From Xenococcaceae cyanobacterium MO_188.B32 (lineage in GTDB: Bacteria; Cyanobacteriota; Cyanobacteriia; Cyanobacteriales; Xenococcaceae), in assembly GCA_030065635.1 (NCBI GenBank), contig JASJDJ010000012.1, positions 1 through 64,000 on the forward strand: a stretch of 64,000 nucleotides of DNA, in the 5' to 3' direction. This document shows positions 21,205 to 32,450 of the stretch, piece after piece. Both the position numbers and the translations under genes were made by a program. Under the pieces are notes generated by a model. The model did no database searches and was not told the DNA's origin. It was given only the letters and a program-made list of their open reading frames with translations. Numbering within the stretch: the first letter of the stretch is position 1; every line of letters starts with the position of its first letter.

Positions 21205-21998
21205 ATGATTTCTGAACAAAACAATTGTAATATGGGTGCATTATTTGGCTTGGGTCGCAGTGGAACAACCTGGTTAGGAGCAATTGTTGCCAGTCATCCA
21301 GAAATCTTGTATCGTTTCGAGCCATTTCATCGGCTGCAAAAAATTTATATAGCCCCAAAGGTAAACCAATGTTGGTGTTTAAAGAAGTTGATTATCCTGA
21401 TATGGTGGTCAAGTTTTTGACAGAGACAGAAGTACCAATTGTTTACATAATACGTCATCCTTGTGCAGTGGTATCCTCAATCATGCGGGGTCAAGAAAAT
21501 TCCCTGATGCCTATGCCCGAACCGAGAATGGCTGTACTGAAAAGAGTATTAAATAAACACGAGCCTAAGCTAGCTAAGATATATGGGGAGAAACTCGATA
21601 AACTCACTATATCTGAGCAAGAAGCATTACATTGGCTAGTTGAAAATGGACGAGCATTGCGCATCTGTCAGAAGCATTCCCAAGGATTGATTGTAATTTA
21701 TGAAGAATTAACTGAACGTCCCTTAGAAATTGCTCAGAAAGTTTTTCAGCATTTTAATTTAACTATGCCAGAAGAATCAGTTGCCTTTATTGAAGAGAGT
21801 ACCAAAAAGTCATTGACATCAGCAATTAAGCGAGGAGAAGTAAACATGAACCAATACTTCACAGTTTTTAGAGATCCCAAAGTTTCTCGCGATCGCTGGA
21901 AAGAGGAAATGTCTAAAGAGGATCGAATACGAGTAATGCAAATTGTTAAAGATAGCCCAGAATTCTCCCTCGGTGCCGAAAGAGGTTTTTGGACTTAA
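21205..21998 (+). pseudogene. Sulfotransferase, broken by internal deletion and frameshift
   Basis: The N-terminal frame from the ATG at 21205 has the PAPS phosphosulfate-binding loop GLGRSGTTWLGAIVASHPEIL and EPFHRL. Around 21340-21370 the coding sense moves by one frame and continues as PKGKPMLVFKEVDYP, then the PAPS 3'-phosphate region (YIIRHPCAVVSSIMRG) and a normal C-terminus to 21998. Between the two halves the usual 40 or more residues seem to be missing, so this is deletion plus frameshift rather than a single base error. It belongs to the surface-polysaccharide locus, being next to the PP-loop gene. If the frame were restored it would sulfate a glycan, but as read it should be inactive. 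Confidence 0.65.
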
Positions 21999-22080
21999 AG
22001 AGTTCAGACACTAGTATTCTAAAAAACATTCATAGTCACCTGAATATAATCGGAAATATTACTTTTATTTGAGCAAATTA

Positions 22081-23325
22081 ATGAGAATTGAAAATTTCAG
22101 AAAAGAAACAAAGGACAATCTAGTCAAAGCCATAGCTACAGTAATCTGGGAAGATCGAGACCGACCATCTAAAGACCTCTATTTTGAAACTACAGCAGAA
22201 TACGGAGATGATCTTTTTTGTAATCCCAACTCGTTTCTGTTGACTTGTACTCTTCCAGCAATGCGCTATGGAGAAAAGAGAATTGCCCTCGATGCACCTA
22301 TTTGTCCCGAATTAAAAGATGGTTTAATTACTGCTATGAATTACTTAATCGATTGGCATGGGGGCGATCGCCGAGTAATTCCCATCGAAGCTCCACTTCA
22401 GTCTCAGGCTTTGTTTCCCCATAAGCCTCCTAGAGCAGGATGTTTATTCTCTGGCGGTATCGATGCTTTAGCTATGCTACGAGATAACCATCTTAATTTT
22501 CCTCCAGAACATCCCCGCTATATTCAAGATGGAATATTAGTTTATGGCGTGCTTAATGGAGAAGATGAATTTGACCCCAGTTTCCAAAATGTTATCAATG
22601 CTATCTCAATGATGGCAAAAGATGCAGGGATTAATTTAATTCAAGTTAATACCAATACCAATGCTCACTTGAGAGATTTAGACTCCGACTATAGTTTCTG
22701 GAGATTTGAATATCACGGTTCCTTTCTCGCAGCGATCGCCCATGCTTTTGCCCCCAGGCTAACCACAGTTTCTATTGCCTCTACTTATGATATTCCCCAT
22801 TTAGAACCTTGGGGTTCTCATCCTCTAATCGATCCCTTGTATAGTAATACAAATTTACAAATTCGTCACGAAAATGCAGCTTTGTCTAGGCTAGATAAAA
22901 CAAAATTAGTGGGAGAATGGGATGTGGCGTTAAAGCATCTGAGAGTATGTAATGAGAAAGAAAGCTACAGTCAGGGTAATTCTAACTGTGGTAAGTGTGA
23001 AAAGTGTGTCCGCACCATGACCGCTCTTTTAGCCTTGGGTATCTTGGATAAAACATCTACTTTTAGGGAGAATGATGTTTCTAAAAAGTTATTACTGGAT
23101 ACTTGCTATCTAAGCGATTCTTATGAAGAAAACTGTTATCGTGAGTTGATAGAGCCTTTGAAGCAAATAGGTCGGGATGATTTAGCGGATGGAGTTCAAC
23201 AAGTTATTACCAGATATCAAGAAAAAGACTTCAAAGGCTTGATCAAACGTTTCGATCGCGCCTTTCTGAACGGTAATTTATTGAGTTATGTCAGAGCGAA
23301 AAAAAAAGAAAAGCAGAACTCTTGA
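22081..23325 (+). CDS. PP-loop ATP-pyrophosphatase-like protein with zinc ribbon, in polysaccharide locus
   Basis: 414 residues from the ATG at 22081 (a TTG at 22069 is in frame). CLFSGGIDALAML at about 125-137 is a PP-loop of the SGG-x-D type that activates a substrate by adenylation, as in QueC and asparagine synthetases. At about 303-315 CGKCEKCVRTM resembles the Cys cluster near the C-terminus of QueC-like proteins. The first 100 residues (KDLYFETTAEYGDDLFCNPN, LPAMRYGEKRIALDAP) are not QueC and I do not recognise them. It ends one base before the convergent flippase gene. It may modify a sugar or activate a carboxylate for the polysaccharide; the substrate is not known. Confidence 0.7.
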   Translation: MRIENFRKETKDNLVKAIATVIWEDRDRPSKDLYFETTAEYGDDLFCNPNSFLLTCTLPAMRYGEKRIALDAPICPELKDGLITAMNYLIDWHGGDRRVIPIEAPLQSQALFPHKPPRAGCLFSGGIDALAMLRDNHLNFPPEHPRYIQDGILVYGVLNGEDEFDPSFQNVINAISMMAKDAGINLIQVNTNTNAHLRDLDSDYSFWRFEYHGSFLAAIAHAFAPRLTTVSIASTYDIPHLEPWGSHPLIDPLYSNTNLQIRHENAALSRLDKTKLVGEWDVALKHLRVCNEKESYSQGNSNCGKCEKCVRTMTALLALGILDKTSTFRENDVSKKLLLDTCYLSDSYEENCYRELIEPLKQIGRDDLADGVQQVITRYQEKDFKGLIKRFDRAFLNGNLLSYVRAKKKEKQNS

Positions 23326-23326
23326 C

Positions 23327-24610
23327 CTAATATTCATGCTTAAATGCTCGACGAGTTAACCAGAACACAATTAACCAGACAAAAATGAGTCTTAAAGAGT
23401 CAGAAATTAAGGTAGCCCAAGCAGCACCTTTCCAACTGTAGAGAGGGATTAACCATAAATTCAATCCTATGTTTAATAATGCAGAAGCAACTTGGACTGC
23501 ACTACGTGCTTTTTGATGACCTGCTCCCATTAAGGTATTAGCTGCAAGATGTTGAAACGCAGCGATCGCAGGTAGAGGAGCTAACCAGCGTAAAGCTTCG
23601 ATCGCATTTCGATATTCTTCTCCTAAAATAGTTGGTAAAAAAGAAGCAAAAATTAAATATCCAAGTAAACTAACAACTCCATAAAGACCTAATACAGGTA
23701 ACAAACGTTTAGCAAACCCAAAACTGCTTCTAATTCCTGATGCGCCATGTTTAAAAAATCTTGTGTAGGAAGCCCCAAAAATAGACAAAAGCAAAATATT
23801 TCCTACCTGAATAAAGCGATAAGCTGAACCGTAAATACCTGCCGCTGTCAGAGTTGACATGCTGGCAAGCATAGTTTTGTCTAGATTCGAGTTAATGTTA
23901 TTGGCAGACCCACTAATCGAAAAATAAATTCCCTCCTTAACAATTGGCTTTAGTTTTGATAGTACAGGTTTAGGATAACCAATCAGCTTATTGACAGTAA
24001 AAACTGAAATTCCACCAGCTATTGCAGAGCTTATGAGAAACAATGCAGCCCAAGTATCTACAGTTGGCTGAGGAAACAATGTGGCTAAACTAAAGGCTGC
24101 TATTAATTTTATGCCGATACCTAATATTCCTAATTGTGCTGCTTTTTTAACTCTATATACTGACATTAAAGCTTTAATACTAGCCTCAGATAATGACAAA
24201 AAAATTAAGTTAGCTATCAAAATCAGGAATATGCTCAACAAAGAAATATTACTAGCAAAAATCATCGGAGACAACAACAGTAAAACAGTTGTAAAACAAG
24301 CTCCGCTGACGAAGAGAGTCACTAAGGTATTGCCCCAATACAAACTAAATAAATTTTTGTCAGTTGATACATATTTAATTAAAATATGATCGCTACCTAA
24401 ACCAACAAAGGGAAAGGCAAGCGTACCTAAAGCAGTAACACTAATAAAAGAACCATAGTTTTCAGCACCTAAGGCACGAGCAAGGATAATAAAAGATCCT
24501 GCTTGCATGAATACTCTGAATACTTTTGCCAGTAACATCCATAAAGTATCTCGTGCTAGGTCTTTGCGAAACAGACTTGATATCTTCGATTTGATTGTTG
24601 ATAAATTCAT
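23327..24610 (-). CDS. Wzx-type polysaccharide flippase
   Basis: 427 residues with about 12 to 14 hydrophobic segments and a polybasic cytoplasmic start. The family features are visible: AGSFIILARALGAENYGSF near the start, ILIKYVS, the central FSISGSANNINSNLDKTMLASM, and the C-terminal ALLNIGLNLWLIPLYSWKGAAWATL. Such proteins flip lipid-linked oligosaccharide units across the plasma membrane for Wzy-dependent chain growth. It belongs with the glycosyltransferases and Wzc-type kinase on the same strand to 31144. No wzy polymerase is visible in the window. Confidence 0.88.
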   Translation of the reverse strand: MNLSTIKSKISSLFRKDLARDTLWMLLAKVFRVFMQAGSFIILARALGAENYGSFISVTALGTLAFPFVGLGSDHILIKYVSTDKNLFSLYWGNTLVTLFVSGACFTTVLLLLSPMIFASNISLLSIFLILIANLIFLSLSEASIKALMSVYRVKKAAQLGILGIGIKLIAAFSLATLFPQPTVDTWAALFLISSAIAGGISVFTVNKLIGYPKPVLSKLKPIVKEGIYFSISGSANNINSNLDKTMLASMSTLTAAGIYGSAYRFIQVGNILLLSIFGASYTRFFKHGASGIRSSFGFAKRLLPVLGLYGVVSLLGYLIFASFLPTILGEEYRNAIEALRWLAPLPAIAAFQHLAANTLMGAGHQKARSAVQVASALLNIGLNLWLIPLYSWKGAAWATLISDSLRLIFVWLIVFWLTRRAFKHEY

Positions 24611-24878: not shown

Positions 24879-26564
24879 TTAACCGTTAAAGTGTAAAGTA
24901 GAAATCTTGACTAAAGACTGACCATCAAAATAGTCAGGAATCGGCGCACCCATTAATTCTAAAATAGTAGGAGCTAAATCTACTGCTTCACCAGCTGGTA
25001 AATTAGAACCAGCAGCTATTCCCTCTCCCTTTGCCATCAAAAATCCCTGGCTTTTATGACCTCCGGCTCGACAGTGGGTTAAAGGTCCGATGCGTCCAAG
25101 GTCAGGACTATCCACAACATCAGTCATTGGTTCATTCCACAACACTACTAGATCGGATTCAGGCAATTTGGGGTCATCATCAAGAGAAGCATTTCGAGTT
25201 TTCACTACTTGTTTAACAATTGTTTTTCCTGTCCTCCCATCGCGCAGACGATACAGAATTTCTGTAATCTCGTCGCACACAGCATCATATTCAGAGGGTT
25301 CTACAATACCATCTCTTTCTCGACCTTTAAGGTTAATACGAATATGTCCGTTAGTAAAACCAGGTAAAGCAAAAGCTTTCATTTCTGGCCACAGATCCCA
25401 ATACCACATTACAGGCATCCAACCCATAGCCAATTCTCGTTCTATAGGTTCATCATTTAAGCTATAAGGGGAAATTAGTCCGTGTTTTTTTCCTCTGAGA
25501 AATTTCTTGTGAGTCCAAGTATGAAAAAGCTTTTTGATTAGATTAGGTTCGTCCATCTGACTCCAAATTTCTCCTGCCCAGGAATTCCTAATCGGTTTAT
25601 TGACCACTGGTGCAGGAGTTGTTCCTACTCGACCAGACGTAAGAGCGACTTTACCCTTAAAACTAAATCGATAAAGTAACTCTGGCAGAACTGCCATACT
25701 GAGCAAATCGGTAAAATTAGCTGCCATACCATGAACGGCAAAGCATAGGAGATAAGCATCTTCAGGAGCTTTTGTTAAAATTTCACCAATCGCCTTATCT
25801 ATGTTTTGGTAAGTTGCTAACATGGGGTCTGGGTTGGTACCTTTCTCGCTGAGATATTCATAGAGAACATGATCTGACTGACTGTAGTTATACAGATCGT
25901 GACCGACAGTATGGGTTTCAGCAAACACCATTAAAAATAAATCCCAATCTTCCCGCTTCATCAATTCGCGGGCAATCTGAGAATGACCCCGTACACTTTT
26001 CTCTAGTTCCTGCTGAATCCATTTAACATAATTTTTTTGCCACCAAATCCCATTGTCATTGTGCAAAATTGGATTTTTACCATATTTTTCAATGATGGCA
26101 GGGAATACTTCGGGAGGATGAGAATCGCTTACTGTATAAGGATAATGTCCTCCCCAACCTAAAACTTGCACGCCCTTAACTCGCTCCGAAAGAGTTGTTA
26201 CTGGCAAGTCAAACACGGCTACTTTATAGTCTTCTCCTAGAGCATAAAAAGGAGAATATTCTTGATAATCGTAACCACTATCAACAAGATCGGAAAAAAT
26301 TTCGTAATTTTCGGGATTATAACTGTATGTATCCCAATAGCCAGTTTTATCCGCACGACATCCAGTGGAAAAGGTTACCCATAAAGGTTCCGTTGTAGAG
26401 TACTCTGTCGGTACGCCACAATAATTAACGGTGTTGTTGAGGCGACCGTATGTTCCTTGGCGAGCAATTTTATTGAGGTTAGGAAGATAACCTTCAGACA
26501 TCCATTGTTCAATTAACCTTGGTTCAGCAGCGTCCAAGCCGATAGCTATAACTGGTTTGTTCAT
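24879..26564 (-). CDS. Alkaline-phosphatase-superfamily phosphodiesterase/pyrophosphatase-like protein
   Basis: 561 residues. The start IGLDAAEPRLIEQWMSEGYL and TEPLWVTFSTGC (nucleophile region, residues 57-69) are those of type I phosphodiesterase/nucleotide pyrophosphatase enzymes. FAETHTVGHD (215-223) supplies the next metal ligands. At the site usually written DHGM the protein has AVHGM (His278), lacking the Asp, and GPLTHCRAGGHKSQGF near the end supplies the last His. No signal peptide is seen, so it should be cytoplasmic. It alternates with GT2 genes in this locus, which suggests work on an activated sugar or glycolipid. A truncated second copy is at 27705-28349. Confidence 0.8.
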   Translation of the reverse strand: MNKPVIAIGLDAAEPRLIEQWMSEGYLPNLNKIARQGTYGRLNNTVNYCGVPTEYSTTEPLWVTFSTGCRADKTGYWDTYSYNPENYEIFSDLVDSGYDYQEYSPFYALGEDYKVAVFDLPVTTLSERVKGVQVLGWGGHYPYTVSDSHPPEVFPAIIEKYGKNPILHNDNGIWWQKNYVKWIQQELEKSVRGHSQIARELMKREDWDLFLMVFAETHTVGHDLYNYSQSDHVLYEYLSEKGTNPDPMLATYQNIDKAIGEILTKAPEDAYLLCFAVHGMAANFTDLLSMAVLPELLYRFSFKGKVALTSGRVGTTPAPVVNKPIRNSWAGEIWSQMDEPNLIKKLFHTWTHKKFLRGKKHGLISPYSLNDEPIERELAMGWMPVMWYWDLWPEMKAFALPGFTNGHIRINLKGRERDGIVEPSEYDAVCDEITEILYRLRDGRTGKTIVKQVVKTRNASLDDDPKLPESDLVVLWNEPMTDVVDSPDLGRIGPLTHCRAGGHKSQGFLMAKGEGIAAGSNLPAGEAVDLAPTILELMGAPIPDYFDGQSLVKISTLHFNG

Positions 26565-26703: not shown

Positions 26704-27705
26704 TTATACTTTGGTGTGAAACATAGTTTTTTGATTACTGTCTTCAGTATTGCCAAAATAGGATACTAAGCGTCGCTTAATTATCTTTGGTATTTGAGTA
26801 CTCAAATGTTGAAAAAACTCAGGATTTGTAACCATCGCCGTCAAAGCTGTTGACAATTCTCCTTGTTTTAGTGGTTCTACAATTCGATAATAATTTAGCC
26901 ATTTTTGGCTTTCACGTTTGTGAAGTAACAAAGCTCGAGCGACTTGAGGATTATTAGACAGATAGTCTTTATTTTCTAAAAAATCATTAATCTTCTGACA
27001 TTGATTCTCAAGACGTTCAATTTTATTGCTAGAAACAAGAGAAGCAGAACGACCGCGATAAAAATAATAGGGTTCGGGAACCAGAAAAAAAGTTGCCCCA
27101 TGTAAGAAGCACTGCATATCTAACCAGAAATCTTCACCTATTTTGAGAGTTTCATCATACTTGATGTTATGTCTAACTAAAAAATCTCTTTTCAATAAAG
27201 GTTTAGTAAAACCCAAACGCAACTTTCTTTTCCCTTCAATCTGCGAGCCAACAAAAGCAGCAGCCGTAATTCGAGTAATAGAATCAATATTTTCTCCACT
27301 CTGACCAATTAATGTTCCCCAAGGAGAACTATCGCCGTCTTCGATTAAATATAAATTGTCGGCGATAAAATCTGCGTTTTTTTCTTCAGCTATTTGAACT
27401 AGTCTTTCGAGTCTTTTTGGTGCGTACCAATCATCTGAGTCGAGAACTGCAACCCATTCGCCTGTTGCCGATCCAAGAGCGCGGTTGCGAGTACTTCCTA
27501 CACCCAAATTTTGCTGATTGAATAACAGTTTCACCCTAGGGTCGGCAAAGCTCTGAACTACTCCTACTGTATTATCTGTAGAACAATCATCAACTACAAT
27601 AACTTCTATATTTGTTAAAGTTTGAGATAGAACTGAGGAAATTGCCTTGTGTATATATTGCTCTGTGTTATATGCGGGTATAATTACGGATACTTTTATA
27701 TCCAT
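26704..27705 (-). CDS. Family 2 glycosyltransferase
   Basis: 333 residues. A GT-A fold glycosyltransferase: VSVIIPAYNTEQYIHKAISS at the start, EVIVVDDCSTDNT for the nucleotide, and VAVLDSDDWYAP carrying the metal-binding DxD. The acceptor half contains LKRDFLVRHNIKYDETLKIG and EDFWL (ED motif), ending in a basic tail. The ATG overlaps the stop of the truncated AlkP-type frame upstream (TAATG), so translation is coupled. Its first 150 residues are very similar to the fragment at 28316-28765, showing a local duplication. Donor and acceptor are unknown. Confidence 0.9.
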   Translation of the reverse strand: MDIKVSVIIPAYNTEQYIHKAISSVLSQTLTNIEVIVVDDCSTDNTVGVVQSFADPRVKLLFNQQNLGVGSTRNRALGSATGEWVAVLDSDDWYAPKRLERLVQIAEEKNADFIADNLYLIEDGDSSPWGTLIGQSGENIDSITRITAAAFVGSQIEGKRKLRLGFTKPLLKRDFLVRHNIKYDETLKIGEDFWLDMQCFLHGATFFLVPEPYYFYRGRSASLVSSNKIERLENQCQKINDFLENKDYLSNNPQVARALLLHKRESQKWLNYYRIVEPLKQGELSTALTAMVTNPEFFQHLSTQIPKIIKRRLVSYFGNTEDSNQKTMFHTKV

Positions 27706-28349
27706 TAGCTTACTTCCTGAGGTAAATTTGTAAGTAATTCTAACAAAGGTCTACCATCAAAATAGTCAGGAATCGGTGCACCCATTAAGTTGAGTATCGT
27801 AGCTCCAATATCTACTGCTCTTCCTGTTGAGAAATTAGAATTAGGTGTAATACCTTGTCCTTTAGCTAGTAAAAATCCATTTTCTCGGTGACCACCAGGA
27901 CGATTGTAAGTAATCGGTCCAATGTGCCCTACATCAGGACTATCTACTAAATCGGTAGGTATTTCATGCCAGATAACTATTAAGTCTGGGTCTGGCAGTT
28001 TAGGATTGTTGTCTAAAGGAAATTTACGTGTTCTGACAACTTGTTTGACTAGGGACTGCTGACTTCTGCCATCTTTTAAACGATAGAGAACATCAGTAAT
28101 TTCGCTGCACAAAGCATCATATTCTGAGGGTTCGACAATTCCGTCGCGATCGCGCCCTTTGAGATTAATACGAATGTGCCCATCAGCAAAAGCAGGGAGA
28201 GCAAACGCTTTCATCTCTGTCCATAGGGAAGAATACCACAAAGCAGGCATCCAACTTAATTCCACTTTGTTTTCCATAAGAGGGTAGGGAGAAAGTAAAC
28301 CATGTTTGGGTGCTCTTAAAAACTTTTTATGAGTCCAGGTTTGCCACAA
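27705..28349 (-). pseudogene. C-terminal fragment of a second AlkP-superfamily gene
   Basis: 214 residues corresponding to roughly the last 40 percent of the 561-residue protein at 24879-26564: WTHKKFL followed by KHGLLSPYP, NLKGRDRDGIVEPSEYDALC, then VDSPDVGHIGPITYNRPGG and the GAPIPDYFDGRPLLEL end. The nucleophile and first metal sites are absent, so it cannot be a working enzyme alone. Upstream, about 28355-28366, the frame breaks (TAG, then IKKLW) where it joins a glycosyltransferase fragment. It retains an in-frame ATG and the coupled stop/start with the downstream GT2 gene. Confidence 0.8.
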
Positions 28350-28765
28350 TTTTTTAATCTAATCATGGTTCCCCAAGGAGAACTCGAACTGTCTTCGATC
28401 AGATATAAATCATCAGCGACAAAGTCGGCATTTTTTTGTTCTGCTACTTCAACCAGTCTTGATAGTCTTTCTGGTGCATACCAATCATCAGAATCCAGCA
28501 CTGCGACCCACTTCCCTCTAGCTGCTCTGAGAGCTCGGTTACGGGCACCTCCCGCACCCAAATTTTGCGGGTTTAATAATAATCGTAAACGAGGATCGTC
28601 AAAACTCCGAACTACTCTTACTGTATTGTCTGTGGAACAATCATCCACCACAATGATTTCTATATTCTCGAGAGTTTGGCTGAGAAGAGAAGCGATCGCT
28701 TGATGTATATATTGTTCTGTATTATAGGCAGGTATAATTACTGATACCTCTACTTCTCGATTCAT
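28316..28765 (-). pseudogene. N-terminal fragment of a second GT2 glycosyltransferase
   Basis: 149 residues. The first 130 match the GT2 at 26704-27705 closely (VSVIIPAYNTEQYIHQAIAS, VDDCSTDNTVRVVRS, VAVLDSDDWYAPERLSRLV, YLIEDSSSSPWGT), then the sequence turns into RLKNCGKPGLIKSF, which is the AlkP-type gene read in the wrong frame. The acceptor-binding half is lost. An AAGGAG ribosome site is present before its ATG, so a truncated donor-binding domain may still be made. Confidence 0.8.
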
Positions 28766-28909: not shown

Positions 28910-31144
28910 CTAAACAACGGCTGCTTTAGGAGAATTAGAATTATCAACATAATCTTGTCTGCGAGAAAAATAACTTTTGGCATATCTAGCGTGGTAAGAA
29001 TAGCGTTCAAATTCTTTCTGTTGAACTCCATTAATGACCATACCCAAAACTTTTTGGTCTACAGCAGCTAAAATTTCTGTTGCTAAAATTGCGCTTTCAT
29101 GTTCTGCTACTCCCGGTCGACTGACAAAAAGAATTCCCTCAGCCATCTTACTCATAGTGAGTACATCTGCTGTAACTGGTAAAGGAGGGGCATCAATCAG
29201 AATCAGCTCGTATTCTTGTCGTGCTTGAGCTATCAAATTACTCATTTCGGGGGAATCTAACAAAGCTAGTGGATTTGGAGGTATTACTCCTGAGGTTAAA
29301 ATATCTAATTTTTCCATTGGCTGAGATACTACTGCTTCGATGTCTGTTTTTTGAGTGAGGATATCTTTTAATCCTGTTTGGTTATCTAGTTTCCATAGCT
29401 TATGCTGAGATGCTTTTCTTAAATCTCCATCTATCAGCAAAACTCGACGACCCATCTGGGCAGCAGCAGCAGCTAAGTTAGCTGAGACAGTTGATTTTCC
29501 TTCTCCGGGAACAGAACTTGTGAGGAGAATAACTTGAGGCTGTTTATGAGAGTCGATCAGTTTTAAGTTGACTTGAATCATGCGATACAGTTCGCTGCTC
29601 AAAGAATCGGGTTGTGTTTGTACAATTACGCCGGAGTTGTTTTCTTCTGGTTCTTCTGGAATAATACCCAAGACACTATAAGCAAATTTATCTTTAATTT
29701 CAGTAATGTTTTTCAGAGTATGGTCTTGCATTTCTAAAAACAATACGGAGAGATTAGAAAATAACAGACCAAGCAAAACTCCTAAAATCATTAAGCCTAG
29801 CTGACCAGAACTACCTCGTTCTGGAGATTGGGCAAATTCTATGATTTTAGCGTTAACAGTTTGTAGATTTTCGGCTAATTGTACTTCTTGCAAACTGCCT
29901 AAAAGTGTTTCATAGGTTGTCTGTGCAGCAGTAACCTGACGGACAAGGTCTTTTTCTTTTTGTTCTAGTTGAGGTAATTGTTTGGCTCGATTGAGATAAA
30001 CTTGCTGAGATTGATATAGAGAAGCTAATTGTCTTTGAAGACTTAGTTTTTCAATTTCTAAAGCAATAAATTTCTCTAGTTGACCTTCTCTGTTGTTATT
30101 GTTTCGGAGTAAACCATCATTAACTTTTACTCGTGAACCTACTCTTTGTCTGACTAACTGTCGTAATTTTTGATTTAAGTCTGCTTTTTTCTCTTCTAGA
30201 CTAATAATACTAGGATGATTATCTCGAAATCTTTGGCGTTCTCGAGCGAGTTCTGATTCTGTATTAATCAATTCTCTAAAAATACCTTCGACTACTGGAG
30301 AATTACCTAGTTGGCTAGCAGAAATTGCTTGTTTGAGGGTTAAACCAAGCTGTCTTTGTAAAGTGTTAGCTTGTGCTTGGACTCCTTGAAACTTAGAACT
30401 GGTACTCGCCAGTTGTCGGTTAAGATTCCCTAGTTCTAGAACAACAGTTTCTCGTTCTTTTGCTAGATCGACTATATTGTTTGCTTCTTTAAATTGTCGT
30501 AATTGCGATTCTGCTCTTACAACTTTTGTTTCCATTTGAGGAATTTGATCGCTAATAAACTCCCTTGCTCCACTAGTTTCTTCCTGATTACTACTGATTT
30601 GCTTTTCTATATAGGTATTCATTAAAGTATTGACTATATCAGCAGCAGTAAGGGGGTCTGAGTTTTTATATGTTATTTTGATTACGTCGCTTCCACCAAC
30701 AATATTAACTTCTAAATTTTTTTCTAAATCTTCTGGATTGAGAGGTTCTCCTTCTTCATTTTCTAGTTTGAGTCGATCGATAGTTTGTTGCAATATGGGA
30801 GTAGAAGTAATAACTTCAATTTGAGTACTCAAAGGGGTCTGATTATTTAGTAAAGGTTTTAATTCGCCAACACCTTCTCCTATATTTGCTAAAGATGAAG
30901 TGTTATTTTCTTTGAATAGTAATTTACCTTCAGCCTGATAGGTGGTTTTGAGTAGGGTACTCAAAGCAGTACTAACTCCTACAGTCAATAAAAATACAAA
31001 TAAAGCTGGTTTCCAGCGACGTTTTAATTTTTGGAAGTAATTTGTAAAGTCCAAATCTACAGATTCTTTTACTTCTATATAATTATTGGTGAAGGATAAA
31101 TTACCTTTTTGGATACCGCTATCGCTCGGCACTAAATTAGACAT
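28910..31144 (-). CDS. Wzc-type polysaccharide co-polymerase with tyrosine autokinase
   Basis: 744 residues. A cytoplasmic start leads into a first membrane helix (about 48-67), a Wzz-like periplasmic domain with long coiled-coil (about 190-430), a second helix (about 450-475), then the BY-kinase: Walker A SSVPGEGKSTVSANLA, Walker A' VLLIDGDLRK and Walker B LILIDAPPLP. The C-terminus is a Tyr cluster (YSYHARYAKSYFSRRQDY), the autophosphorylation site. Such proteins set chain length and export of capsular or released polysaccharide. It is the first gene of the minus-strand surface-polysaccharide group, followed by GT2 and AlkP-type genes and the flippase. Confidence 0.93.
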   Translation of the reverse strand: MSNLVPSDSGIQKGNLSFTNNYIEVKESVDLDFTNYFQKLKRRWKPALFVFLLTVGVSTALSTLLKTTYQAEGKLLFKENNTSSLANIGEGVGELKPLLNNQTPLSTQIEVITSTPILQQTIDRLKLENEEGEPLNPEDLEKNLEVNIVGGSDVIKITYKNSDPLTAADIVNTLMNTYIEKQISSNQEETSGAREFISDQIPQMETKVVRAESQLRQFKEANNIVDLAKERETVVLELGNLNRQLASTSSKFQGVQAQANTLQRQLGLTLKQAISASQLGNSPVVEGIFRELINTESELARERQRFRDNHPSIISLEEKKADLNQKLRQLVRQRVGSRVKVNDGLLRNNNNREGQLEKFIALEIEKLSLQRQLASLYQSQQVYLNRAKQLPQLEQKEKDLVRQVTAAQTTYETLLGSLQEVQLAENLQTVNAKIIEFAQSPERGSSGQLGLMILGVLLGLLFSNLSVLFLEMQDHTLKNITEIKDKFAYSVLGIIPEEPEENNSGVIVQTQPDSLSSELYRMIQVNLKLIDSHKQPQVILLTSSVPGEGKSTVSANLAAAAAQMGRRVLLIDGDLRKASQHKLWKLDNQTGLKDILTQKTDIEAVVSQPMEKLDILTSGVIPPNPLALLDSPEMSNLIAQARQEYELILIDAPPLPVTADVLTMSKMAEGILFVSRPGVAEHESAILATEILAAVDQKVLGMVINGVQQKEFERYSYHARYAKSYFSRRQDYVDNSNSPKAAVV

Positions 31145-31443: not shown

Positions 31444-32091
31444 CTAGGAGCTAATATTAGATGTAACTAAATGTATTTGACGAGAATTAGGAGCAAGATA
31501 AATCCAACCCAGGTCTTGTAAACGATGAATCAAGTTAGATATTGTTACTCCTAATTCATCGGCTAGAGAGTATAAATGAGACCATCTAGTTAAATCTTTT
31601 CCTTGTTTTAGCTGTACTAATATATACTGAGGCATTAGCAGACATCCAGCAAAGTATTGTGCTTGCCATTCAATTCCCGCGGAATGATTCGCACTACGAC
31701 ATACTAATGGTTTAGCTTGAATATTAATGCCTTTATTTTGCAGTCTTTTATAACGAGCTACTTGTTCGACATCAATATGGAGTACCCAATGTCCTATTTC
31801 ATGAGCAATGGTTGATTCTGCAAATCCTCCTTGAAGCTGAGAAATATTTTCATTAATTTCAATCAAGTATTCTAAGGGTAAAATCCTGGCAGCTATTTGT
31901 CCTTGTTCGTCATCAGCAATAACATCCCACACAATATCTAGTCCCAAAAATTCAGCAACCCTACTAGCATCTAAGGGATACTTAGGAATATAGTTTGGTT
32001 TTGGGTGCATTTTTACTAAAATTTCTAAAGCAATAGCTTCAATCTCAACTTTAGAAATAAAACGAAAAGGAGGGAAAATATCTAAAAACAT
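31444..32091 (-). CDS. ImmA/IrrE-family metallo-endopeptidase
   Basis: 215 residues from the ATG ending at 32091; a TTG two codons earlier overlaps the upstream stop. The zinc motif HEIGHWVLH (about 98-106) and the downstream Glu in GIEWQAQYFAGCLLMP (about 140-155) are the COG2856 signature, and a C-terminal winged-helix-like segment (LADELGVTISNLIHRLQDLG) is present. It follows an XRE repressor by two bases. In ImmR-ImmA and IrrE-DdrO pairs the protease cleaves the repressor on a signal such as DNA damage; that function here is by analogy. Confidence 0.85.
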   Translation of the reverse strand: MFLDIFPPFRFISKVEIEAIALEILVKMHPKPNYIPKYPLDASRVAEFLGLDIVWDVIADDEQGQIAARILPLEYLIEINENISQLQGGFAESTIAHEIGHWVLHIDVEQVARYKRLQNKGINIQAKPLVCRSANHSAGIEWQAQYFAGCLLMPQYILVQLKQGKDLTRWSHLYSLADELGVTISNLIHRLQDLGWIYLAPNSRQIHLVTSNISS

Positions 32092-32093
32092 AG

Positions 32094-32450
32094 TCAAAGT
32101 TCAGAAGATTGACTATCTACAGCAATTGCTTCTTGAAATACTCGTCGGGCAAATTCGGGATTTTCTCCCATGCGTCTAAATAAAGTGGGCATATTTTTAT
32201 AGTGTTGTTTGAGTAACTTTTCTTGGGCTTGAGGAATCCGCCCTGCTAAAAAGATTAACTCTTCTGCGTTTAAATTGAGATGGCGTGCCAAAGAACGAAT
32301 TACTTCTTCTTTGGGGGCATAATCTGCTCGCTTGTTTTCTAATTTAGATAAGTAAGTAAAGTCAATTTTTAAGAGTTTAGCTAACTCCCTTTGGCTATAA
32401 CCTTTATTTTTTCTTGCTTGACGAATTAGTTGACCAAAATTTTGAGTCAC
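32094..32450 (-). CDS. XRE-family transcriptional regulator
   Basis: 118 residues. An N-terminal helix-turn-helix (FGQLIRQARKNKGYSQRELA, then KIDFTYLSKLENKRADY, residues 4-48) is followed by RHLNLNAEELIFLAGRIP and a C-terminal part of about 40 residues (PTLFRRMGENPEFARRVFQ). The stop lies two bases before the ImmA-type protease start, so the pair is one operon. Likely represses its own promoter in the 85-bp spacer to the receiver gene, and likely is the substrate of the protease; both are inference from family pairs. Confidence 0.88.
   Translation of the reverse strand: MTQNFGQLIRQARKNKGYSQRELAKLLKIDFTYLSKLENKRADYAPKEEVIRSLARHLNLNAEELIFLAGRIPQAQEKLLKQHYKNMPTLFRRMGENPEFARRVFQEAIAVDSQSSEL

Follow-up and report, generated by a model that had tools for sequence, protein, structure and literature searches.

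What does a protein that resembles the tRNA-base enzyme QueC do beside the polysaccharide genes of a cyanobacterium? The question is raised by a 64,000-nucleotide stretch of Xenococcaceae cyanobacterium MO_188.B32 (contig JASJDJ010000012.1, positions 1 to 64,000; the window), in which a plus-strand gene at 22081..23325 encodes a 414-residue QueC/QatC-like PP-loop protein. An initial annotation, made from the sequence alone, had set this protein apart from QueC and suggested that it modifies a surface sugar or a sulfate or carboxylate donor, an interpretation that our analysis partly supports. We found that the window protein belongs to an as yet unnamed branch of QueC/QatC-type PP-loop ATPases and that the wide family of this branch is associated with glycan genes in cyanobacteria, and we consider a glycan role for the branch probable. 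More tentatively, and with slightly less than even confidence, we propose that the window protein is an amide-forming enzyme of the QueC fold that uses the carboxylate of a sugar or glycan precursor and decorates a surface polysaccharide. The fold and the ATP chemistry are well supported, and we infer the adenylation itself, the carboxylate substrate, the amide product and the glycan target.

The open reading frame (ORF) is intact from 22069 to 23325 and opens with an alternative TTG start at 22069, followed by an in-frame ATG at 22081; since this methionine is also where the close relatives begin, 414 residues is the right length. A comparison with its 85%-identical copy at L007 (L and G label loci and genomes throughout) gave a ratio of nonsynonymous to synonymous substitution rates (dN/dS) of 0.11 over 413 codons for this single pair, which argues that the gene is under purifying selection and is not a chance ORF. 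As first described, the protein carries a PP-loop, SGGIDA (residues 124-129; 22450..22467), recognized from sequence, alignment and conservation count, and a zinc-type four-cysteine site (C290 and C303-GK-C306-EK-C309; 22948..23007) with the spacing C-x12-CxxCxxC, a pattern found in 120/120 family sequences and presumed to bind zinc. The alignment also revealed a family motif, GSHP (residues 245-248; 22813..22824), whose HP is paired by hhalign with the HP of QatC. The model and the structural and profile alignments place residues 1-115 (22081..22425) in an N-terminal domain outside the part that can be aligned with QueC.

A scan of one genome per species across 84,980 species yielded 126 stretches encoding a relative, 80 of which were kept. 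Judged by record titles, the rows of the family tree fall under 15 phylum-level labels, and Priestia and a haloarchaeon come in through plasmid matches. The named relatives closest to the window gene belong to Xenococcaceae and Pleurocapsales, and the family is patchy in cyanobacteria, with a relative in 18/148 genomes of the order (single-sequence search, E 1e-20) and 12/292 genomes of the phylum (profile search, E 1e-15). We counted conservation over 120 of 133 profile matches, chosen by length and including the window protein, and found 34 window positions in columns that are at least 85% conserved, including the SGGxD loop, R270, K273, C290, N302, C303, C306, K308 and C309; G126, D128, N302, K308 and the four cysteines do not vary at all. 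Two relatives are longer, one of 620 residues at L176, whose PP-loop part is followed by a Peptidase_S11 match (residues 383-552), and one of 622 residues at L177.

Could the protein simply be a QueC? Against the QueC model (PF06508) it scores 11.7 bits vs a gathering cut-off of 22, all of its Pfam matches stay below the cut-off, and neither NCBIfam nor PADLOC has a family that matches at E up to 1. The window protein and its relatives at 62 of 81 loci were assembled as set A1, from which 19 near-copies, frame-shifted or partial loci were dropped and in which the start of L084 was shortened; 23/63 of its members give weak PF06508 matches (E up to 0.1, the best being 0.0022). The motifs of canonical QueC, namely YxQxHxxE, VPxRN and YPDC (PMC13329287), occur in 0/120 family sequences vs 13/13 cyanobacterial QueC controls. 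Moreover, a canonical QueC is present in each of 13 genomes searched, including the window's own, where it scores 249 bits and lies on another contig, and no queuosine gene was seen among the window neighbors scanned. A divergent QueC that makes preQ0, or some other base of tRNA or DNA, would share the core fold and zinc-type motif that we observe, but the missing motifs and the true QueC elsewhere in the genome make this explanation extremely improbable, and canonical QueC was rejected on score, motifs and the presence of the true enzyme. The family search therefore did not place the protein among queC, and both its initial separation from QueC and the reported lack of a nearby queuosine pathway gene held up.

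The predicted structure (mean predicted local distance difference test score, pLDDT, 94.0) aligned best with QatC (9y01_B; Z 14.7, root-mean-square deviation 4.7, 295 residues aligned within residues 1-375), followed by QueC (2pg3 and 3bl5; Z 12.8, with 186 and 182 residues aligned from residue 116 of the window protein) and Cap9 (9nto; Z 11.8, 170 aligned). NASAT (8WEX) was not in this list of structural matches, which does not exclude it, and Foldseek on the whole model gave no match at E 0.001 or below. Residues 116-375 can account for no more than 260 of the 295 QatC-aligned residues, so that 35 or more must lie in the N-terminal domain. When folded alone, this domain had a pLDDT of 93.5 and returned weak RNase H-like matches only (VIA; Z <=6.1, QatC not being among the chains retested), with no Foldseek match at E 0.001 or below. 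The profile-profile alignment to QueC spans residues 118-319 only, in line with the earlier remark that the first third is unlike QueC, while hhalign gave 15% probability against two QatC sequences and 14.5% against six QatC-like ones, sets too small to inform. We consider the N-terminal domain, as modeled, likely to be akin to the QatC extension.

QatC being the best structural match over residues 1-375, the protein might instead modify other proteins, with a small acid attached to a partner's N-terminus in the manner of QatC or Cap9, possibly in defense. QatC has extensions around a QueC core (PMC12424860), and the same is predicted for the window protein, but no PADLOC family recognizes the window protein and the PADLOC QatC model matches 3/63 relatives (best E 0.011). 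The YPDC substrate motif is likewise absent, and qatA, qatB and qatD were not recognized in Pfam and PADLOC scans of the neighbors examined, for which no one-by-one search was made; QatB has no Pfam model (PMC13329287). A helix-turn-helix and IrrE-like peptidase pair resembling capH/capP lies 8 kb away (window 31447-32450) and is not a Qat or a cyclic-oligonucleotide-based antiphage signaling system (CBASS) type IV partner set. Altogether, we regard a protein-modifying role as improbable. A defense system was rejected, PADLOC being negative for the protein and near-negative for its relatives.

If the protein is neither QueC nor QatC, what do its neighbors suggest? We counted as glycan-type any gene for a polysaccharide pyruvyl transferase (PSPT), a GT2 or GT4 glycosyltransferase, a flippase or a sulfotransferase within three genes of the PP-loop gene, and used as a control 20 regions from ten related genomes, all cyanobacterial, in which 3/357 genes are of this type. 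In the wide family, thinning to a single locus for each genus or contig left 16 cyanobacterial loci (with a pair of loci from each of two genomes), and PSPT was found within three genes in 10/16; 19/86 of the neighboring genes were glycan-type, compared to 3/357 in the control (p 5e-12). The order GT2, pyruvyl transferase, AsnB-like protein, PP-loop protein recurs in the cyanobacterial loci L126, L128 and L181 and is mirrored in L055, and an AsnB-like protein stands beside the PP-loop gene in 6 loci. The AsnB-like proteins of L126 and L181 start with MANF and thus presumably lack the Cys2 that we take to be required of a glutaminase. Outside the Desulfobacterales clade described below, Pfam families among 139 near neighbors (set A2, 139 of 148 listed proteins; the nine dropped were very long proteins and likely antisense ORFs) included GT2 (7), PS_pyruv_trans (4), Glycos_transf_1 (3), GMC (3), Polysacc_synt (2) and Asn_synthase (2).

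Plasmids offered a second view of the same association. Of 15 matched plasmid records we inspected 9, and PSPT lies within two genes in 7/9, from Gemmobacter, two Gloeothece, two Azospirillum and two Priestia; on a Nostoc plasmid, Wzc-like and glycosyltransferase genes lie at a distance of 5-12 kb, and on a Halorientalis plasmid an ATP-grasp gene adjoins, with a flippase further off. On the Priestia plasmids (L153, L183), two PP-loop genes in tandem form a glycan cluster with genes for UDP-glucose dehydrogenase, GalU and pyruvyl transferase, and the L153 stretch includes an annotated DUF6395 gene. The existing annotation was used for the PP-loop gene of the GC-rich L152 and L182, which the ORF caller missed, and for the pyruvyl transferase of L149, which was not counted.

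Closer to the window, the association was also detected in its own subclade, where 5/14 loci and 8/78 neighboring genes were glycan-type vs 3/357 in the control (p 8e-5 with a duplicate removed). Copies were left out of these final counts, L114 being the same contig as L008 and L180, by its equal length, apparently the same contig as L081. The most telling context match comes from G128 (L120), a genome of another family of the order, in which a 44%-identical PP-loop gene, a flippase, a GT2 gene and a phosphodiesterase gene stand together as in the window. A GMC oxidoreductase gene adjoins the PP-loop gene in 5 loci: L011, L013 and L049 (Desulfobacterales, Nitrospirota and Chloroflexota), which also have an ABC transporter that appears Wzt-like by eye, and the cyanobacterial L119 and L123, the former with a GT61 transferase and an epimerase as well. 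At L008, DegT and hexapeptide-type genes adjoin.

In the reaction that we propose, ATP would probably be bound at SGGIDA, the window protein would adenylate a carboxylate, and an amine (ammonia or a small amine) would displace AMP to leave an amide, as in the first half-reaction of QueC or, with an N-terminal glycine as the amine, in Cap9. The carboxylate would most likely be a uronic acid, a sugar oxidized by a neighboring GMC enzyme, or a pyruvate ketal, and the amide would end up as a decoration on a surface polysaccharide, for the window protein as for a large part of the wider family. ATP-grasp and AsnB-like families both act on carboxylates, and carboxylate chemistry is the common thread of these partners. 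QueC converts a carboxylate to an amide and then a nitrile with ATP and ammonia, and Cap9 uses a protein amine to form its amide (PMC13329287, PMC12424860). Precedents also exist in glycan loci, since WbpS is a uronamide-forming enzyme (PMC7468200), the glucuronate of a capsule can be amidated by an ATP-grasp domain (PMC11800379) and NASAT is a PP-loop/zinc enzyme of lipopolysaccharide (LPS) synthesis (PMC10607449); these three are of other folds or families. An AsnB-like enzyme can, moreover, form a C-terminal nitrile on a peptide (PMC13060819).

Several observations weigh against a glycan-tied amide-forming enzyme. A glycan gene was called in only 5/14 subclade loci (4/13 without the window, p 0.004), and L007, L009, L010, L115-L118 and L148 show none within three genes. 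Some of the seeds of the neighborhood profiles came from the very loci that were counted, with 8/15 PSPT loci holding no seed. The window and G128 flippases have no BLAST match at 1e-10, and so the flippase part of their shared set may be a coincidence. The Wzt-like ABC profile is not enriched (7/605 near genes vs 9/357 control genes) and was dropped as a glycan marker because control genes match it too, and the 139 neighbors of set A2 also include proton antiporters (4) and AAA_21 proteins (4). In the window itself, a Pfam scan of the neighbors revealed no adjoining uronate-forming enzyme. Lastly, the PP-loop ends in alanine in the window protein, while the residue is serine in 97 of the 114 sequences with a recognizable loop (the window included), and a QatC S156A/S161A double mutant is dead (PMC12424860).

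A further point against comes from a related clade of 38 loci, mostly from Desulfobacterales (L015-L059 without L017, L018, L049, L052, L054, L055 and L058), where 0/190 neighboring genes are glycan-type; all 45 loci, with the seven outside the clade included, give 3/228. Instead, a RimK-like ATP-grasp gene is found within three genes in 34/38 clade loci, usually on the same strand and immediately upstream (32/33 measured gaps lie between -23 and 180 bases), and is often preceded by a protein of ~600 residues with a C-terminal GNAT domain, as in the set at L024:3836-7984. This gene set is often near a TLC-type transporter with a cyclic nucleotide monophosphate (cNMP) domain and a gene that by eye resembles the formylglycine enzyme. 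Because of this RimK-like, glycan-free context, the family as a whole is not glycan-only. It is conceivable that the enzyme forms amides on small molecules or peptides without any tie to glycans, making or finishing a soluble compound with the RimK-type ligase in Desulfobacterales, and that the polysaccharide neighbors in the window are incidental. Such a role would fit the clade (0/190 against a control rate of 3/357), the unrelated neighbors of most close cyanobacterial relatives and the position of the window gene on the strand opposite the exopolysaccharide run, but it sits poorly with the strong glycan association of the cyanobacterial wide family and the plasmids, and with the glycan-type settings with GMC genes in L011, L013, L049, L119 and L123, which belong to the same large clade or lie near it. 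We judge it rather unlikely, yet a serious alternative to the glycan amide that we favor. The proposed link to polysaccharides thus stands for the cyanobacterial wide family and the plasmid pyruvyl transferases, while it fails in the Desulfobacterales clade and in 9/14 subclade loci, where no glycan gene was called within three genes.

Extending the glycan amide to the family at large is more speculative still, and on balance unlikely. On this account, the family would be a widespread, undescribed class of QueC-fold ligases that place amides, or nitriles through the second QueC step, on carboxylated sugars in the surface glycans of bacteria and archaea, with PSPT, GMC oxidoreductases, AsnB-like proteins or ATP-grasp ligases as partners.

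Is the gene still at work in this genome? All of the expected neighbors, namely the broken sulfotransferase, flippase, GT2 and Wzc genes, were found. Upstream on the plus strand, a sulfotransferase gene is broken into an N-terminal remnant in frame 1 (21205..21411; Sulfotransfer_3 profile positions 5-30, E 0.0012, under the Pfam cut-off) and a C-terminal part in another frame (21369..21998; Sulfotransfer_1 positions 84-244, E 0.0004, 20.3 bits vs a cut-off of 22). Since the parts lie in two frames and their profile positions leave a gap, the gene is frame-shifted and lacks a middle stretch; the frame-1 remnant from 21205 includes GLGRSGTTWL, which we take to be the end with the PAPS-loop. With the sole adjoining sulfotransferase broken and sulfotransferases within three genes at 3/113 loci, the suggested sulfate-donor role was not supported. 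On the minus strand follow a polysaccharide flippase (Polysacc_synt; 23327..24610), a type I phosphodiesterase (24879..26564; 61% identical to one near the G128 PP-loop gene), a GT2 glycosyltransferase (26704..27705; 52% identical to its G128 counterpart), second, truncated and overlapping phosphodiesterase and GT2 copies beside the intact ones (27705..28765), and a Wzc-like tyrosine autokinase or chain-length protein (28910..31144), as identified by Pfam and, for the phosphodiesterase and GT2 genes, also by BLAST. Because the PP-loop gene lies on the opposite strand and converges on the flippase gene, ending 1 base from its stop, it is not part of the flippase-Wzc operon. Cytochrome b6f genes are recognizable by eye in the window translations.

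The broken sulfotransferase and the truncated GT2 and phosphodiesterase copies could indicate that the PP-loop gene is also decaying, a family member no longer important in this genome. Two more PP-loop gene copies in the same genome are fragmentary (G000 C91:140-558 and C39:83089-83637, the latter with stops), and the SGGIDA loop departs from the usual serine. However, the frame is full-length, the residues invariant in set A1 are kept, dN/dS is 0.11, and SGGIDA is common to the window, L007, L009, L010, L115 and L116, so that decay seems to us a little less probable even than a protein-modifying role.

A glycan-tied amide-forming enzyme, if confirmed, would mean that sugar acids are activated in a manner not described before, and would supply a function for a family annotated as hypothetical in 15/15 plasmid records. 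The known uses of the QueC scaffold are the synthesis of tRNA bases and, as found recently, the modification of proteins in phage defense; surface glycans would be a further use, the boldest possibility being a polysaccharide that carries nitriles. The partners that can be tested are the genes for pyruvyl transferase, GMC oxidoreductase, AsnB-like proteins and ATP-grasp ligases. We found no description of the family in polysaccharide loci in the literature, in which subscription journals were thinly covered, and this is weak evidence of novelty.

How does the window protein compare with known systems? With QueC it shares the PP-loop, the C-xn-CxxCxxC pattern and the core fold, but it has an extra 115-residue N-terminal domain and a long helical C-terminus (both predicted), lacks YxQxHxxE, VPxRN and YPDC and falls below the Pfam cut-off. 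Its SGGIDA is a one-letter variant of the QueC SGGxDS loop, and its C-x12-CxxCxxC is a spacing variant of the QueC C(x)8CxxCxxC, with zinc presumed. QatC, from the anti-phage system qatABCD, is the nearer likeness, with an SGGxD loop, a late four-cysteine site and a QueC core that is extended at both termini, and its HP motif (PMC13329287) is set by hhalign against the family's GSHP. On the other hand, the PADLOC QatC model gives no match for the window protein (E up to 1), nor any in genome G000 at E up to 1e-10. In QatC, the extensions are required for defense, and the reaction is left unresolved in the source (PMC12424860). Another cyanobacterial group (L206-L211) does match the QatC model (128-151 bits), with proteins of 470-486 residues carrying SGGLDA and CGYCSSC.

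Cap9 of type IV CBASS, which joins 7-carboxy-7-deazaguanine (CDG) to an N-terminal glycine (PMC12424860), shares the QueC core, and its ligation of a carboxylate to an amine is the chemistry that we also propose for the window protein. However, Cap9 has ~185 residues and keeps the QueC active-site motifs (PMC13329287), whereas the window protein has 414 and lacks them, and no CD-NTase, the partner of Cap9, was found among the window neighbors scanned. NASAT (WbpG/PseA) similarly combines a PP-loop with a tetracysteine zinc site in an LPS pathway, but its motif is CxxC-Xn-[GN]xCxxC with SGGxDS (PMC10607449), and the window protein has no NCBIfam match at E up to 1. Enzymes of the AsnB/WbpS type carry a glutaminase-type domain. 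These uronamide synthetases (PF00733) belong to another PP-loop family, and PF00733 is not among the Pfam matches of the window protein at E up to 1, but they convert the carboxylate of a sugar acid to an amide (PMC7468200), which is the reaction that the window protein may possibly carry out on a QueC-type fold.

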